21,769 nucleotides of DNA. Source: a virus. Positions 333-11,757 of this stretch are shown in pieces; the first letter of the stretch is position 1, and each line of letters starts with the position of its first letter. Both the position numbers and the translations under genes were made by a program. Below the pieces are notes generated by a model, which had not been told where the DNA came from, searched no databases, and was given only the letters and a program-made list of their open reading frames with translations. The stretch spans positions 1 to 21,769 of IMG/VR virus record IMGVR_UViG_3300028197_000682, one strand, 5' to 3'.

Positions 333-836
333 TTAATCTAACAAATTGCCAATATCAATCTCTTGTGGTATTTTGTTTGCTTCTTTAACAAACATTGCAC
401 ACGCAGGATTGCTAGTGTTCTCTAAAGGTGCTAACAACATGTGTCCATTCTTTAATTTTGGAAAGAACCATTTCACATCTTGAAAGATATTTGTAATCTT
501 AACTTCATGTGCTTCTAGTAATTTTCCACTTAATGGATTTAAGGTTGCTGTTAGGAACCCTCTATTATTTAAACTGGTAAGTGGTAATACTTCTATTCCA
601 CTCAAATCTTCATCTGTAATTGCAATACTCCAATCCATTGGCATTTGGATATTGTATTCGCCTATCTGCAAACATATTGCAGGAGCATAAAAACTCTCCA
701 AAAAGATTAAAGGTAAAAAATAGTAATCCATCCATTCAGGATCACTAGTATCAAATACGCCAAATCTAATATCATCTATTTCATCTGGTACATTATCTAT
801 TTCATATACGGTATTATCTACTGTTAATATTTTCAT
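333..836 (-). CDS. Hypothetical protein, 167 aa, downstream of uvsW
   Basis: Complete frame of 167 aa whose ATG overlaps the uvsW stop codon in an ATGA arrangement, which indicates translational coupling to the helicase. The protein is acidic in its first third (EIDNVPDEIDDIRFGVFDTS), then alternates hydrophobic and polar stretches typical of a small globular alpha/beta or beta-rich domain. It has no signal peptide, membrane helix, nucleotide-binding loop or metal-binding motif. I do not recognise the family. Position suggests a role linked to DNA replication or repair with UvsW, but this is only guilt by association. Being a real gene is well supported by the overlap, codon use like its neighbours and the SD-equipped gene that follows it. 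Confidence 0.85.
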   Translation of the reverse strand: MKILTVDNTVYEIDNVPDEIDDIRFGVFDTSDPEWMDYYFLPLIFLESFYAPAICLQIGEYNIQMPMDWSIAITDEDLSGIEVLPLTSLNNRGFLTATLNPLSGKLLEAHEVKITNIFQDVKWFFPKLKNGHMLLAPLENTSNPACAMFVKEANKIPQEIDIGNLLD

Positions 837-2290
837 TTATACTCCACTTTGGTAACTTGAAAAGGGAATCCTTGTTCTTTATAGAATGCTTTTCGTTTGG
901 TTAAATGTCGCTTACTATATTTTAGATTACTTGTGATGTCGACCACATTCAAATAATCCTTATCTTCTGCTTTACGGATTCCTCTACCGATACTTTGTAT
1001 AACTCTTACAAAACTTTTACCTGGCTCTAGAAGAACTAAGTTAAAAATTCTTGGTATGTTAATACCGACCGCCGCAACACCGTAAGTTGCAACTATTACT
1101 TTATTGTCCATCTCAGATACTTGGGCATATTCTGTTTGCCTATCTTTAACTTTCATATCTCCACTAATAAATACCCAGTCCGGATTCTTTTCTATTAAAA
1201 GTTCGCCGGTGGCTATTCTATCTATTAGAACAAGTGTATTACCAGAACCACTTAGTCCTTTAATAATATCACTTATGTGACTTACTCTGCCGTCGTCTGT
1301 TACAAGCCATTTAAGTTCTTGTGCATAGTTATTAAACCCTAACACACCGTCTTGTAATTGAAATATGTTAATGTCTAACTTTGCTAACACACCTCTGTCT
1401 TGTAATTCTTTACTGCTTAAATTTCCAGTAACTGGACCTAAGCAACATGTACAGCCAACTGCTTCATGCTCATCTTTTGGTATAGTACCTGTCAGTCCCC
1501 AACGAATAGGAACATTTGCAAATACGCCACCTAATAAATTTCTTAAAACATCCGCTTTTGCTTTGTGTACTTCATCTACCATAATGCAAACAACACCATC
1601 TAAGAACTGGTCAATAGGAAAGTCTGCTTCATACTTTTTACTTTTCTTTTCTAGTATTGCTAGACTTTGCCAAGTACATATTGTATGTGTTTTATCATAC
1701 TCTTTCCTATCGCCAAATAATACACCAACATCAAGACCTAAATTCTTATAGTCCCTTTCTGTTTGTACTACCAAATCTTTATTAGGAACAATAACTACAC
1801 TACGCCCATATGGTTCACATAAATCGCTTAAGGCGGCTGTTATGAGCGTCTTACCGGCGCCTGTAGCCACTTCCTGCAAACTCTGTGGGTTTGCAATAAA
1901 CTCGTTAATAACTTCAACTTGATAATCTCTAAGTATAATAGGTTCACCTTCTGCAGGATGTCCTTTGGGCCATGCTGTATTCTCATACCTTGTTTGCTCA
2001 ATAGGTTGAAAATTAAACTTCCATTCATCACGTTGATCCTGTATTTCAATTTCGTAACCATCTGCTTGTACAATAGGCAGTAACCTATCCAGCATGTTCA
2101 TATATGTTCTACCACCAATATCACAATACCTAACACAACCATCCCATCTGCCTAGTTTATAAGCAGGCATATGATATGCATAAGGTAAGAAATATTTACA
2201 AGCATCAGAAATTTTACGTCTAGTGCTTGGTGCTAATCCAACAAACTTTACGTTTACTTCATCTCTTATTTCTAGAACACATTTACCCAT
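833..2290 (-). CDS. uvsW: UvsW-like superfamily 2 DNA/RNA helicase
   Basis: A 485-aa helicase. In T4, UvsW unwinds R-loops, D-loops and branched DNA, converts origin replication to recombination-dependent replication, and rescues stalled forks. Visible motifs: N-terminal domain 1-110 with the family-typical PAYKLGRWDG stretch (42-51); motif I VATGAGKT (141-148); motif II DEVH (239-242); motif III GLTGT (265-269); motif V VGINIPR near 408; motif VI QSIGRGIRK (432-440). Length is close to T4 UvsW (about 500 aa). The ATG at 2290 gives the expected N-terminus but has no Shine-Dalgarno. A sigma-70-type promoter lies so close that the message would begin at or next to the ATG, suggesting leaderless translation. 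The gene overlaps the downstream 167-aa gene by 4 nt. Confidence 0.95.
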   Translation of the reverse strand: MGKCVLEIRDEVNVKFVGLAPSTRRKISDACKYFLPYAYHMPAYKLGRWDGCVRYCDIGGRTYMNMLDRLLPIVQADGYEIEIQDQRDEWKFNFQPIEQTRYENTAWPKGHPAEGEPIILRDYQVEVINEFIANPQSLQEVATGAGKTLITAALSDLCEPYGRSVVIVPNKDLVVQTERDYKNLGLDVGVLFGDRKEYDKTHTICTWQSLAILEKKSKKYEADFPIDQFLDGVVCIMVDEVHKAKADVLRNLLGGVFANVPIRWGLTGTIPKDEHEAVGCTCCLGPVTGNLSSKELQDRGVLAKLDINIFQLQDGVLGFNNYAQELKWLVTDDGRVSHISDIIKGLSGSGNTLVLIDRIATGELLIEKNPDWVFISGDMKVKDRQTEYAQVSEMDNKVIVATYGVAAVGINIPRIFNLVLLEPGKSFVRVIQSIGRGIRKAEDKDYLNVVDITSNLKYSKRHLTKRKAFYKEQGFPFQVTKVEYK

Positions 2291-2295
2291 AGTTT

Positions 2296-2325
2296 ATTAT
2301 ACTACCATCTACGTTGTATTGTCAA
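2296..2325 (-). promoter_or_regulatory. Sigma-70-type promoter for uvsW, inside the end of the receptor gene
   Basis: On the minus strand TTGACA (2325-2320), an 18-bp spacer and TATAAT (2301-2296). The -35 box lies in the codons for the last residues of the TonB-dependent receptor and its TAG stop falls in the spacer. The predicted start point is about 2289-2290, that is, at the uvsW ATG. Confidence 0.65.
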
Positions 2326-4002
2326 CTTAATTTCTCTACCCTGAGTACCATACCCTGGTAGAACCTCTGTGTCTTCGTCTAACACGTTGTTAAGATTAAT
2401 TGCTAATTGTACATTAGAATCAAATGTTTTAACATAGCCGAAGTTTAATTTTTCTAAGTCCTCTAATTCGTCTCCATCATACTCTCCAGGCTTTCTATCA
2501 TATGCACCTGTGTAAGTAGCATTTACATTGTGAGAACCAAAGTCTTGATTGTAACTTAATACTGCAATATACTTAGGCACTCTAGCCTGTTCTGTATCTG
2601 TGGCTTTTAGCATTACACCAAATGCTCCAAATGTTTGTGAGTATCTAAACCCTTTAGTTTGATATGCACCTGTATTAAGATATTTTGCATTGTTATAAAC
2701 AGTTGTGGTTGTTGACGTTGCATTTCCTTCTTCGTCAATATCTATTGTTACAACATCCTCAGAATATCCTGGCTGGTATTCTATTGCTTGTTCAAAGTCA
2801 TACATGAAAATACTTAAGACACCAAATCCTAATTCATACCCAACTGCTTCTTCTGGTAGTAAATCTAAGTTAGCATCAACATAACCATCTCCATTTATTT
2901 CGTATAAGTTTGGTCGTCTATAACTTGTACCAGCATTAAAAAAGAATTGATTCTTTTCAATACCAAATCTCATAGCATTCTGGTCTTCATTGCCAACTCT
3001 AAAACCAAAGTTATAATTTAAGGCAAACTCGGCATTGATATTTAAGTAAGCACCATAATTATCCCTTGTATGTTTTTCATTGTTTAAACTTTGATACTGT
3101 TCTTGGCTTCCGTCTACACCATATGCAATTTGCAGTTTTTGAGATAGGTTAGTTTGGTCTCCTATTCTTACATAGTCTGTACTACTCTCATTAGAGTAAG
3201 ACATCCAATCACCAGAATAATATTCTGATTGCTGATGCGTTCTACCTATAGTAAAGTACTCATTGTTAATAGCAACATTATATTTTTCACCGTCTTGTAC
3301 ACAATTATTTGTTGATGCAAAACTGGAATCAAAACAATTATCATAGTCGTATTCAAAGTTTGTAAACTTTGCTGTAATAGTAAAGTCCTGAACATCTACA
3401 TTAAGTTTAACATTTTTATTTGAATATGCATCAACTTCTGTGTTGTCATTCCTTGCTTGATTATCTACACCTAATTCTGTGTACTGTATCCAGTTTGTTG
3501 GTGCTAAGTTTAGGTACCTATGGCTATTACTTCCTGCACCCAATGTAAATCCTTTTGTAATAGTATCTTTAATTAATACAGTTCCAGCAATACTGCTTGA
3601 TCCGTATACAACACTATTAGGTCCTGAGATAATTTTTATATCTTCTCCAGTTACAACATCTACTCCAAAGTTATACCATGCTGACCCGGGCTCGTTTGAG
3701 GGTATACCATTTCTGTAAACTGTGGTGTGTATTGTTTGAGCACCACGTTCGTTGTAGCCTTGAAAGGCTCCGTATCCACCTGCTGTCCAAGTGTATGCTG
3801 GTAATACTTTTGTAATTAAATGTGTTTCCGTTAGTGGGTTTGTTTCTGTCGTTGTTACTTGTTGTGCTACTACTACAACTTCCTCTATTTCTTCTGCTTC
3901 TGCATTAAATGATATTGCCATTAATACCATAACTGCAAACACAAAATATAAAGGGCTAAAATTGATGTGGAAATTCCAGTCAATCTTGTTCTTGCTTTTC
4001 AT
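2302..4002 (-). CDS. TonB-dependent outer-membrane receptor (phage-encoded)
   Basis: A 566-aa TonB-dependent receptor. Such proteins import iron chelates, cobalamin, sugars or other scarce substrates across the outer membrane using TonB energy, and often serve as phage receptors. Visible in order: basic N-region and hydrophobic core (about 17-33) with an AEA cleavage site at 34-36; a TonB box EEVVVVA (40-46) right after cleavage; plug domain about 50-148 with the signature IKIISGPNSVVYGSSSIAGTVLI (in part) at 122-144; beta-barrel about 150-566 with alternating strands and many Y/N-rich loops; C-terminal GREIKLTIQRRW ending in the aromatic residue used for barrel assembly. C223 and C234 could form a loop disulphide. 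At 566 aa it is at the short end of the family (BtuB about 614). It has its own promoter and SD (CGGAGAATTTATG). Substrate cannot be read from sequence. Confidence 0.9.
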   Translation of the reverse strand: MKSKNKIDWNFHINFSPLYFVFAVMVLMAISFNAEAEEIEEVVVVAQQVTTTETNPLTETHLITKVLPAYTWTAGGYGAFQGYNERGAQTIHTTVYRNGIPSNEPGSAWYNFGVDVVTGEDIKIISGPNSVVYGSSSIAGTVLIKDTITKGFTLGAGSNSHRYLNLAPTNWIQYTELGVDNQARNDNTEVDAYSNKNVKLNVDVQDFTITAKFTNFEYDYDNCFDSSFASTNNCVQDGEKYNVAINNEYFTIGRTHQQSEYYSGDWMSYSNESSTDYVRIGDQTNLSQKLQIAYGVDGSQEQYQSLNNEKHTRDNYGAYLNINAEFALNYNFGFRVGNEDQNAMRFGIEKNQFFFNAGTSYRRPNLYEINGDGYVDANLDLLPEEAVGYELGFGVLSIFMYDFEQAIEYQPGYSEDVVTIDIDEEGNATSTTTTVYNNAKYLNTGAYQTKGFRYSQTFGAFGVMLKATDTEQARVPKYIAVLSYNQDFGSHNVNATYTGAYDRKPGEYDGDELEDLEKLNFGYVKTFDSNVQLAINLNNVLDEDTEVLPGYGTQGREIKLTIQRRW

Positions 4003-4054
4003 AAATTCTCCGGTTATGTTTTAGGTAAACCTTCCTCGGCTTACGTCTATTATA

Positions 4055-4082
4055 ATTATACGTCTTTACTGCCAAAAGTCAA
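4055..4082 (-). promoter_or_regulatory. Sigma-70-type promoter for the TonB-dependent receptor
   Basis: Minus-strand TTGACT (4082-4077), 16-bp spacer, TATAAT (4060-4055); start expected near 4048, giving a leader of about 46 nt. The -10 region is preceded by AAAGACG, the same 13-mer AAAGACGTATAAT as in the AAA ATPase promoter. The heptamer AGACGTA occurs twice here, 17 bp apart (4065-4059 and 4048-4042), which could be a repressor or activator site. Confidence 0.8.
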
Positions 4083-4104: not shown

Positions 4105-4137
4105 TAAAAGGTGAAGCCCGGAGGATATCCGGGCTTC
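4105..4137 (-). terminator. Intrinsic terminator after the AAA ATPase gene
   Basis: Nine-bp GC-rich stem GAAGCCCGG / CCGGGCTTC (4113-4121 with 4129-4137), 7-nt loop, followed on the minus strand by ACCTTTTAT. It sits 1 nt after the pseudoknot and just upstream of the receptor promoter, so it separates the two transcription units. Confidence 0.75.
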
Positions 4138-4202: not shown

Positions 4203-5249
4203 TTATATCGCTCCTGACATACAAGTAGTTTTGGCTAAACTTTTCCAGTTCTCAGAATCCATTTTTCTAAGGTCTGCAATCTTAAGAACCATTCTCAAAC
4301 TAATCTCCCTTAGTATGTTTTGGTTCTCAGTCATAAAGTCGATAACTTCTTTGTCACCATCTTTACCAAACTTGTATTCATCAAGCATACCGTCTTCGAC
4401 GATTTGGTTAATTCTAAGAAACTTATCTCTCTTAGAGTTCATTGTAAGATCCAAGTAGTGACATCTTGACATAAGTGCCGCCAAGTGATCCTTAATCTTC
4501 TTAGAACGAACGTTTTCAAAATCAACGTTAGTAATAAAGATACAACCACCTTTGAATTCAAACCTATCAGGAATACCTTCTCTACGAAGTGCTTGTGATT
4601 CTGACTTCCAAGTAATAGTTCTTTTCTTACCTGAGTCCAAAGTAGCCTTAAGCATGTTCAAACATACTTCATCAAACAACACACTATCACAGTCATCAAA
4701 TACAAGTATGTTACCTGCCGCTGAATTATTATATAGTGTTTGGAACAAACCAATTGGAGTAACTGAACCTTTAACAACTTCAGTCCTTGCAGGCTTACCA
4801 GCAACTTCTGTTAGCATGTCATAATCTTCTAAAACAGTTTCAACACCAAATGACTTACCAACTCCTGGAGGGCCACTTACTATCATACCACGTACTGTAC
4901 CTTCTGCTACAGCATGAGTCATACGATCCAAAATATCGAAACGTTCTCTGATACGTTCAATTGCTTGAACATCAGTTTCTTCCTTTTCTTCTTTTGGAGT
5001 ATTGTCTATTTTAGGCTGTTCAGCATAAACACTTGGAGTAACATACTCTAAGTCTTTTGTAGGATCTTCAATTAAAATCCTAATGCTTGAAAATTTCTCA
5101 CCCATTGCTTCACTACCATCAACGGTAATAAAAGCACCCTTTTTGCCAATGTTAAGTGGCTTAATGATTGGAAATACTGTATCAACGATTTCGTTTTTAC
5201 GGTAAGTACCAGTCTTAACCTTTACATAATTTAAAGTTTGTTTTGTCAT
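4203..5249 (-). CDS. AAA-family ATPase, 348 aa
   Basis: A cytoplasmic P-loop ATPase. An N-terminal domain of about 95 residues has no recognisable motif and ends in a charged linker (TPKEEKEETD, 84-93). The AAA core follows: Walker A GPPGVGKS (126-133), Walker B ILVFDDCD (181-188), sensor-1-like asparagine N241 in FITNVDF, and an arginine in ALMSRC (262) that could act as arginine finger. This organisation fits ATPases that remodel or load other proteins or nucleic acids. It is not the T4 clamp loader gp44 or helicase gp41, whose motifs differ. It is monocistronic, with its own sigma-70-type promoter, a leader with an unusual GGGGATGAC ribosome-binding region, a 3' UTR pseudoknot and a terminator. 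That suggests a separately controlled, perhaps abundant product. The exact role is unknown. Confidence 0.85.
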   Translation of the reverse strand: MTKQTLNYVKVKTGTYRKNEIVDTVFPIIKPLNIGKKGAFITVDGSEAMGEKFSSIRILIEDPTKDLEYVTPSVYAEQPKIDNTPKEEKEETDVQAIERIRERFDILDRMTHAVAEGTVRGMIVSGPPGVGKSFGVETVLEDYDMLTEVAGKPARTEVVKGSVTPIGLFQTLYNNSAAGNILVFDDCDSVLFDEVCLNMLKATLDSGKKRTITWKSESQALRREGIPDRFEFKGGCIFITNVDFENVRSKKIKDHLAALMSRCHYLDLTMNSKRDKFLRINQIVEDGMLDEYKFGKDGDKEVIDFMTENQNILREISLRMVLKIADLRKMDSENWKSLAKTTCMSGAI

Positions 5250-6149: not shown

Positions 6150-6731
6150 TTATGCATCTAATTTTTCGAAGTACTGTTTGAACAGTCGTTCTTCCCAATA
6201 ATATGCTTCACGTTCCCAAGGTTGGTGACTGTAAGAAACTTTACTATAATCTGCTTTTTTCCATCTCATACTGCTACCAGATAGTTCACCAGATAAGAAC
6301 TGCTTTGCATGTATTAGTTCATGCGTTAAATTAATAAGTATTTCATCTCTCTCAAATACATACCCATTTGAAGTTCTTGCAAGTTCTATATCAATGTGGT
6401 GCTTATCGCCCCAGCAATATCCTCCTGCTTGTTCTTCTAGTGCATTATGGATTTGTACATCAACTGTGACATTGCGTCTTAGTTTTATAGGAATAATGTT
6501 CTCTAACATTAACTCTGATACTGATTCTACAAATCGCTTATTTTTGAACTGTCCTACTATACACACTTCAATCATATCTTGGTTTTCCACCCAGTTAGCA
6601 ATAGTGCTTATAATAGCATCTTCTGTGGGTTTGTCAACCTTTTTGTAAGTTAATGATTTTGAAGGAATTAACCGATTACTATGTCTTCCATTCCGGCTGT
6701 TCTGAGCCTTGTTATGTGACCTATTTGCCAT
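6150..6731 (-). CDS. SprT-like zinc metalloprotease
   Basis: A 193-aa protein with the zincin motif HELIH at 137-141 (inside LINLTHELIHAKQFLSGE) and a downstream acidic segment WEREAYYWEE (172-181) that can supply the third zinc ligand. The fold resembles short SprT/WSS1-type or phage-encoded metallopeptidases; in cells SprT-like proteases cut DNA-protein crosslinks. The first 31 residues are basic and low in complexity (many N, R, K, S, H), as expected for a nucleic-acid-binding tail. The ATG at 6731 lies inside uvsY, overlapping it by 64 nt, with only a weak AAGGGA site upstream. There is no other ATG before the conserved region, but a non-ATG start nearer the end of uvsY is possible. Context with recombination genes suits a DNA-repair or DNA-bound target. 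Confidence 0.65.
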   Translation of the reverse strand: MANRSHNKAQNSRNGRHSNRLIPSKSLTYKKVDKPTEDAIISTIANWVENQDMIEVCIVGQFKNKRFVESVSELMLENIIPIKLRRNVTVDVQIHNALEEQAGGYCWGDKHHIDIELARTSNGYVFERDEILINLTHELIHAKQFLSGELSGSSMRWKKADYSKVSYSHQPWEREAYYWEERLFKQYFEKLDA

Positions 6732-10977: not shown

Positions 10978-11757
10978 CTATTTGTATTTATCATTTATAG
11001 TGTCTAAATAGGAATAATCATTTTGGTAGTAATTATATATCCACTCTTTAACATCTGCATTTACAGTATTATCTTGTATTAAAACGTTCCTTTCAGTAGA
11101 GTAAGTGGTAGTATAGTCCCAGTCAATGTCTACATTAAATTTGTTATTAAGGTAATTTGTGTCTTTATTTTTAATTGCATTGTAGTCTATTAATACAACA
11201 TTAAGACCTAACTCTTCCCATGCAGGTATTATATCCGCATAGTTATATTGTGTGTATATTAAACTAGATATATCTTTTCTTTTGCGCCTTTCCCATTGTG
11301 CTTGTTTGCGTTCCAATAGTTTAATGCCTTTTTCACTATTAAATAAGTGTGCTTCTTCATCAAATACATTACCTGTAAATGTTTTTGTATGTAGATACCA
11401 ACTAGTATGATTAATCATAGATATCCATGCTTCATACGGGTCACGTATTATAATATAAATAGACAAATCACATGTTTCATTTAATTCTTTTATAAAAGAT
11501 GTATTTCTATATGCTTGATACCATCCTAGTGAAAAGTCCATATAAGGCTTGTTTGATTCTTTAACTGTATTAATATATTCTTGTTTAGTTACATTTATAG
11601 GTTTACCTTTATATGTTAAAGGAAATTCTTCGTAAGGTTTTTCACACCATATAAATGTTTCTTTTAGTGGGTGGGTATTATGCGTTTGTTTTAAGTTTTG
11701 CCAAAGCCAAGTAGTTCCTGTTCTAGCCGGTCCTAAACATAACAATAGTTTTGACAT
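10978..11757 (-). CDS. Sulfotransferase-family protein
   Basis: A 259-aa protein with both PAPS-binding motifs of sulfotransferases: an N-terminal 5'-phosphosulfate loop in LLCLGPARTGTTWLWQNL (5-22; compare R-S-G-T-T/S) and a 3'-phosphate motif IIRDPYEAWISMINH (about 103-117) with the R-D-P core and following Ser. Many aromatic residues follow. Such enzymes move sulfate from PAPS to hydroxyl groups of sugars, lipids or tyrosine. There is no signal peptide or transmembrane segment, so it acts in the cytoplasm. Its ATG overlaps the gp17 stop (TAATG), tying its synthesis to the terminase. The target is unknown: virion glycans, host envelope sugars or a small molecule are all possible. It is the only clear metabolic-type enzyme in the late block. 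Confidence 0.8.
   Translation of the reverse strand: MSKLLLCLGPARTGTTWLWQNLKQTHNTHPLKETFIWCEKPYEEFPLTYKGKPINVTKQEYINTVKESNKPYMDFSLGWYQAYRNTSFIKELNETCDLSIYIIIRDPYEAWISMINHTSWYLHTKTFTGNVFDEEAHLFNSEKGIKLLERKQAQWERRKRKDISSLIYTQYNYADIIPAWEELGLNVVLIDYNAIKNKDTNYLNNKFNVDIDWDYTTTYSTERNVLIQDNTVNADVKEWIYNYYQNDYSYLDTINDKYK

Follow-up and report, generated by a model that had tools for sequence, protein, structure and literature searches.

A TonB-dependent receptor of probable BtuB lineage encoded beside uvsW in marine phage genomes

Why would a bacteriophage encode an outer-membrane receptor of the TonB-dependent class, and what could such a receptor bring into the infected cell? The question is raised by an open reading frame in an IMG/VR virus record of 21,769 bases, the whole of which constitutes the window analysed here and which is probably a genome fragment of a jumbo myophage. 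The frame is located on the reverse strand (2302..4002), as are all further features given with window coordinates, and is complete from ATG to stop codon, coding for a BtuB-like protein of 566 amino acids as judged by Pfam and PDB profile searches, AlphaFold2 modelling and structure matches. It is preceded by a GGAG ribosome-binding site recognised by inspection (4008..4011). The translated product begins with a Sec-type signal peptide for export (residues 1-36; 3895..4002), which is clear and conserved across the family, albeit by inspection and alignment only, and is followed by a TonB box (IEEVVVVA, residues 39-46; 3865..3888), of which E40 and V44, together with the next residue Q47, are invariant across 45 aligned receptors. 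A plug domain (residues 61-146; 3565..3822) and a 22-strand β-barrel predicted from the AlphaFold2 model and structure matches (residues 151-566; 2305..3552) complete the protein, which ends in a tryptophan (codon 2305..2307) invariant in the 45 aligned members. The alignments furthermore delimit a span (3295..3459) in which the extracellular loops L2 and L3 are acidic and conserved, with the motifs RNDNxExD and YDYDNC...C, the latter with two invariant cysteines, in what is presumably the region of calcium binding in BtuB. This order of signal peptide, TonB box, plug, barrel and terminal tryptophan confirms the frame as a TonB-dependent receptor, and the initial annotation was thus correct in describing it as complete-looking. 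That annotation had also proposed searches with the Pfam plug and barrel profiles, of which the plug is matched above its gathering score (PF07715; E-value: 7e-8), as it is in 21/21 relatives scanned, but the barrel (PF00593) is not, so that Pfam finds the plug alone. NCBIfam and PHROGs searches of the receptor returned no match.

The genes flanking the receptor encode UvsW, an AAA ATPase, a DexA-type exonuclease, UvsY, UvsX, SSB, a T4-type TerL and a tail sheath protein. Profile matches and a survey of related loci identify a UvsW-like helicase (833..2290) as the fixed downstream neighbour of the receptor site and the AAA ATPase (phrog_1250; 4203..5249) as its usual upstream neighbour; an identification of the latter as the cobaltochelatase CobS has no NCBIfam support. 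TerL is closest to that of the PA5oct-group (58%) and Phosso (48%) jumbo phages, with an overall range of 44-58% identity, and UvsW has its nearest relatives in the same jumbo phages (56%). The phage was initially described as T4-like, but these two proteins place it near the PA5oct/Phosso/121Q jumbo phages rather than among T4-like phages in the narrow sense, although T4-type replication and packaging genes are nonetheless present.

Direct and alignment-based scans of IMG/VR recovered relatives of the receptor sharing 39-99% amino acid identity and place them on scores of contigs from marine viruses. With the UvsW protein as query, 80 loci were obtained, 79 of which could be judged; the receptor adjoins uvsW in 71 and is absent from eight, these counts not being deduplicated and including near-identical contigs. 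Two long contigs, of 216,820 and 250,519 bp, carry one receptor each, which is listed as two pieces of one frame in the former. A chimeric assembly of host and phage DNA, which the initial annotation had named as a possible refutation, is practically ruled out, as is host contamination: the same junctions of the receptor with phage genes are shared by many contigs that are independent of each other and come from different metagenomes, including the two long ones, the GC content of the gene (34.8%) matches that of the window (35.5%), and no evidence in support of a chimera was found. Among named phage records, tblastn matched the window receptor only to entries labelled 'Acinetobacter phage MD-2021a', which are bacterial chromosome contigs (with trpA, accD and other genes) and not phage. 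In six of the eight loci lacking the receptor, a gap of ~90-100 bp separates the AAA gene from uvsW. In the other two (L074:3036-3526 and L075:5507-5997) the terminator, a duplicated promoter and the first codons of the signal peptide are kept while the receptor is gone, apparently through deletion in place, which implies that the gene is dispensable. A further related frame (L022:9800-9968) stops early with an altered C-terminus (...TQGTEYYLH), possibly reflecting a frameshift or sequencing error.

The initial annotation had left the imported substrate open between iron, vitamins and sugars, a range that can be narrowed to the vitamin B12 receptor lineage by three lines of evidence. Firstly, a family profile compared against PDB sequences has BtuB as its sole significant match (E-value: 2.6e-7), followed by YncD (0.24) and PqqU (0.31). 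Secondly, cellular relatives are linked to B12 regulation. When searched by tblastn against a collection of plasmid records, which includes some whole chromosomes, the window receptor matches 13 records and the receptor of locus L087 matches 12, annotated as BtuB (many), as generic TonB receptors or not at all; E. coli FepA, as a negative background, matches 1,458 records in the same collection. In each of the five non-enterobacterial relatives examined, namely four of the generic TonB-receptor matches from the plasmid records and the Acinetobacter chromosome contig, a cobalamin riboswitch scoring 63-137 bits (RF00174; gathering score 31.5) is located directly upstream. One cellular relative has an ABC transporter and an adenosylcobinamide amidohydrolase gene downstream, and another is followed by yvqK, a gene with a B12-related annotation. 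Thirdly, in structure alignments with VIA-align, cobalamin transporters occupy places 1 to 15 (Z: 32.5-37), led by E. coli BtuB (Z: 37.0; rmsd: 2.4; 495 aligned residues) and including the BtuB types of B. theta (Z: 32.5-34.1), while the first non-cobalamin matches are the heme receptor ChuA (Z: 31.8) and then ZnuD (30.7). BtuB is among the smallest solved TonB receptors, which may favour it in this ranking, a bias that the sequence evidence does not share. These findings are good evidence of common ancestry between the phage receptor and the cobalamin receptors, and membership of the phage receptor in the BtuB lineage is very likely.

The same evidence does not, however, establish the present cargo. 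Overall identity between the phage receptor and BtuB is only 18-19%, such that the substrate could have changed. Among the BtuB residues which we take to contact cobalamin, R497 and Y531 are matched by R474 and Y508 of the phage receptor and S91 is likewise matched, while the other contact positions are replaced. Two scans of genome contigs did not reveal a cellular relative or donor, and those cellular matches that came from other searches have 22-25% identity across long alignments. A TonB-dependent importer of B12-receptor origin that now carries another ligand, such as heme, a metal chelate or another cofactor, would accord with this low identity and the partial sharing of ligand contacts, with the place of ChuA and ZnuD directly behind the cobalamin transporters, and with the metal need implied by the class I ribonucleotide reductase of these phages. 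We regard it as quite unlikely, given that every cellular relative examined is under cobalamin-riboswitch control and that no siderophore, heme or metal receptor was significant in the PDB profile search or so named among the plasmid-record matches.

The structural prediction rests on 45 sequences of the receptor's own family (pLDDT: 82.7; pTM: 0.80) and replaces a weaker model built from 21 sequences (pLDDT: 67.6). It has 22 barrel strands and a plug, as counted by hand from the DSSP line, with the plug seated inside the barrel (block pLDDT mostly 64-86). Relative to E. coli BtuB, a 17-residue gap spanning the first plug strand is present in every aligned family member, and the PF07715 match covers profile positions 31-107 only, with the N-terminal 30 positions unmatched. 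The concern that the barrel might prove incomplete is thus not borne out, and the plug is present and conserved, though without its first strand. A shortened plug that fails to seal, leaving a constitutively open pore that permeabilises the outer membrane, could be imagined from this family-wide loss of ~17 residues. It is very unlikely, since no part of the protein is better conserved or evolves more slowly than what remains of the plug, which is modelled in place within the barrel.

The receptor gene appears to constitute its own transcription unit. A σ70-type promoter (TTGACT-N16-TATAAT, 11/12; 4055..4082) precedes it, and a promoter of the form TTGACT/A-N16-TATAAT (at least 11/12) is found at most 100 bp upstream of the receptor in 24/24 loci inspected at the uvsW site, a sample that counts the window and includes some near-identical loci. 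The chance of such a promoter is 0.4% per 200 bp by simulation, and the strong promoter of its own that the initial annotation had ascribed to the gene is thereby upheld. Upstream of this promoter, a hairpin terminator following the AAA-ATPase gene (4113..4137) insulates the unit, while a consensus promoter (12/12) at the 3′ end of the receptor (2296..2325) is placed to serve uvsW. Cobalamin riboswitch control, which is common in cellular btuB genes but is a regulatory feature and not part of the BtuB family definition, is absent from the phage receptor: an Rfam scan at gathering level gave no family match for the window or for five related loci, and a permissive threshold upstream of the phage receptor gave no riboswitch and only a chance lncRNA match on the other strand (E-value: 0.54). 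As read from the sequence, the gene is intact and selectively maintained, with its own σ70-type promoter and an affinity to B12 receptors.

The explanation that we favour, and hold to be probable, is that the gene encodes an outer-membrane transporter of the cobalamin (BtuB) lineage that moves a corrinoid, transport and binding both being inferred. Little cobalamin is available in seawater, and many bacteria are unable to make it. The gene would be transcribed early by the host σ70 RNA polymerase, as inferred from the promoter type and the neighbouring genes, and its product would be inserted into the outer membrane by the host Sec and BAM machineries. Host TonB-ExbBD would energise the receptor through its conserved TonB box; a search of 11 related phage records found no TonB gene, which would leave the phage dependent on the TonB of the host. 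Cobalamin or another corrinoid would thereby reach the periplasm, with a host BtuFCD-type system completing uptake, and could supply B12 enzymes of the host, methionine synthase for example, and hence SAM. As no cobalamin riboswitch is present on the phage gene, import would not stop at B12 sufficiency, and this riboswitch-free copy suggests that the virus makes the infected cell import a scarce cofactor. Corrinoid import in infected cells, with substrate and effect inferred, is itself considered somewhat probable. The interpretation first placed on the locus is as such supported and sharpened.

A use for B12 can be recognised within the phage group itself. Each of the two long contigs with a receptor also codes for a radical-SAM protein that carries a B12-binding domain (L239:58-1908 on G012 and L240:1-1899 on G013), both proteins being related to the KedN5/TokK methyltransferases; the G012 protein matches the cobalamin-dependent methyltransferase TokK (E-value: 2e-81), and the B12-binding domain match of G013 falls under the gathering score. 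In these relatives, imported corrinoid may also feed the phage's own B12-dependent radical-SAM enzymes. An exclusive link between receptor and B12 radical-SAM proteins is unsupported, with PF02310 matches occurring in five of the eight related contigs without a detected receptor (G016, G017, G019, G020 and G026), a spread that suggests B12 use by the phage group rather than a specific pairing with the receptor. A few kb from the receptor, relatives furthermore encode an MTAN-type nucleosidase, adenine phosphoribosyltransferase (APRT), ThyX and SHMT, with MetK in some; the exact substrate of the nucleosidase is unsure because its NCBIfam match is below the curated cut-off. Clusters of such one-carbon/SAM-cycle genes are located downstream of the receptor site at L002:14421-17425, L011:12930-17698 and L098:9787-11408. 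A B12-dependent ribonucleotide reductase is ruled out as a consumer, as the phages carry the class I enzyme (NrdA and NrdB). This lack of B12 dependence weighs against B12 import, as do the low identity to BtuB, the replacement of several presumed cobalamin contacts, the missing plug strand, the dispensability of the receptor and the existence of relatives whose receptor lies at a second site without the promoter.

At this second site (L007, L009, L027, L040 and others), the receptor follows the MTAN-type nucleosidase gene and lies beside baseplate and gp46/gp47-type genes, according to our reading of the gene order, and in four loci examined no promoter of the uvsW-site type was found. The placement among early replication genes noted initially therefore holds for the uvsW site, with its UvsW, UvsX, UvsY and SSB genes, but not for the second. 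In a maximum-likelihood phylogeny of 45 receptors, four changes of site label are needed throughout the 5-95% bootstrap range, implying repeated movement of alleles between sites or lineages; none of the contigs covers both sites of one genome while having a receptor at the second. Receptor pairs sharing at least 66% identity have dN/dS values of 0.10-0.21, and the ratio reaches 0.31 in pairs close to synonymous saturation, compared to 0.03-0.09 for UvsW. Selection on the receptor is inferred from these ratios to be purifying, with no evidence of positive selection.

This mobility bears on the main alternative, in which a phage receptor variant would remodel the cell surface or mediate superinfection exclusion by blocking, replacing or acting as a decoy for the receptor used by rival phages or bacteriocins, with import secondary. 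TonB receptors commonly serve as phage receptors, and a porin gene is known from phage PA-2. Divergence of the receptor far outpaces that of the neighbouring genes (66% identity for L011, vs 95% for UvsW and 93% for the AAA protein), large insertions are concentrated in L4, L5 and L8, all extracellular loops, apart from one of 13 columns that falls in a periplasmic turn, and the receptor is variably present, with alleles at two sites and at least four switches on the tree. Mean pairwise identity is, however, highest in the plug (0.71, vs 0.52 in strands and 0.54 in loops), and the most conserved positions lie in the plug and TonB box, elements that a pure decoy could do without; the gene also remains of B12 lineage across deep divergence, and the dN/dS ratios give no evidence of positive selection. 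The conserved plug and variable exposed loops would fit a conserved ligand and energy function. Surface change against competing phages is thus considered unlikely as the primary role, but cannot be excluded and is compatible with import. Returning to corrinoid import, a broader scenario may be put forward, doubtful but possible, in which this marine jumbo phage group runs a B12 economy of its own: a riboswitch-free, minimal-plug receptor would feed SAM regeneration and methylcobalamin-dependent radical-SAM methyltransferases, while receptor alleles diversify between two sites under pressure from rival phages.

Comparison with known systems places E. coli BtuB (2gsk, 1nqh) closest, as the best profile and structure match, with a 22-strand barrel and plug, similar size, a TonB box directly after the signal peptide and common motifs through the plug and C-terminus. 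The phage receptor differs, beyond its low identity and lack of the first plug strand, in its C-terminal tryptophan (phenylalanine in BtuB) and in being phage-borne under a σ70-type promoter without an Rfam riboswitch match. The Bacteroides BtuB1/BtuB2/BtuB3-type receptors (8blw, 8bmx, 8p98) form the second-best structural group (Z: 32-34), but are longer and operate with surface lipoproteins. TonB-receptor annotations already exist in phages. The megaphage Mar_Mega_1 has an annotated putative SusC (PMC9723777), and this is probably the same protein as BFVD A0A8D9FQQ5 ('SusC [uncultured marine phage]'), the sole strong match in the viral structure library. It is likewise a TonB-dependent receptor encoded by a large marine phage, but has a carbohydrate-class annotation, 805 amino acids, 10% identity and a TM score of 0.52. 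The pelagiphage Polarivirus skadi, another marine phage with an annotation under the same family name, carries a 'TonB-dependent receptor' gene between tail-tube and capsid genes, which its authors took as a hint to the phage's receptor (PMC10504331). No report of a BtuB-type receptor in a phage was found in the open-access literature, subscription papers and preprints being outside this scope. If the favoured explanation is true, a widespread phage family that supplies its own B12-type receptor, one that escapes B12 repression by the cell, would represent a clear case of viral control over vitamin uptake, and would open to testing both the import of cofactors by phages for enzymes of their own and an influence of phage-carried TonB receptors on who else can infect the cell.

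Three minor features of these loci can be added. The n-region of the signal peptide carries a motif, D-x-NFH-I/L-N-F/M-SPLY (residues 8-19; window 3946-3981), with unusually high conservation among receptors that are ~50% identical, while some receptors have an entirely different n-region (MNFEEFFYKHILKI..., L076 and L098), so that an extended signal peptide or a swapped N-terminal module is possible. Between a head protein gene and TerL, the window encodes an orphan sulfotransferase-like protein (10978-11757(-); PF13469 weak, E-value: 0.034) without a PHROG or NCBIfam match. Beside uvsY, a putative zinc metallopeptidase (6150-6731(-)) is encoded, with weak SprT-like and M91 matches and a HELIH motif.
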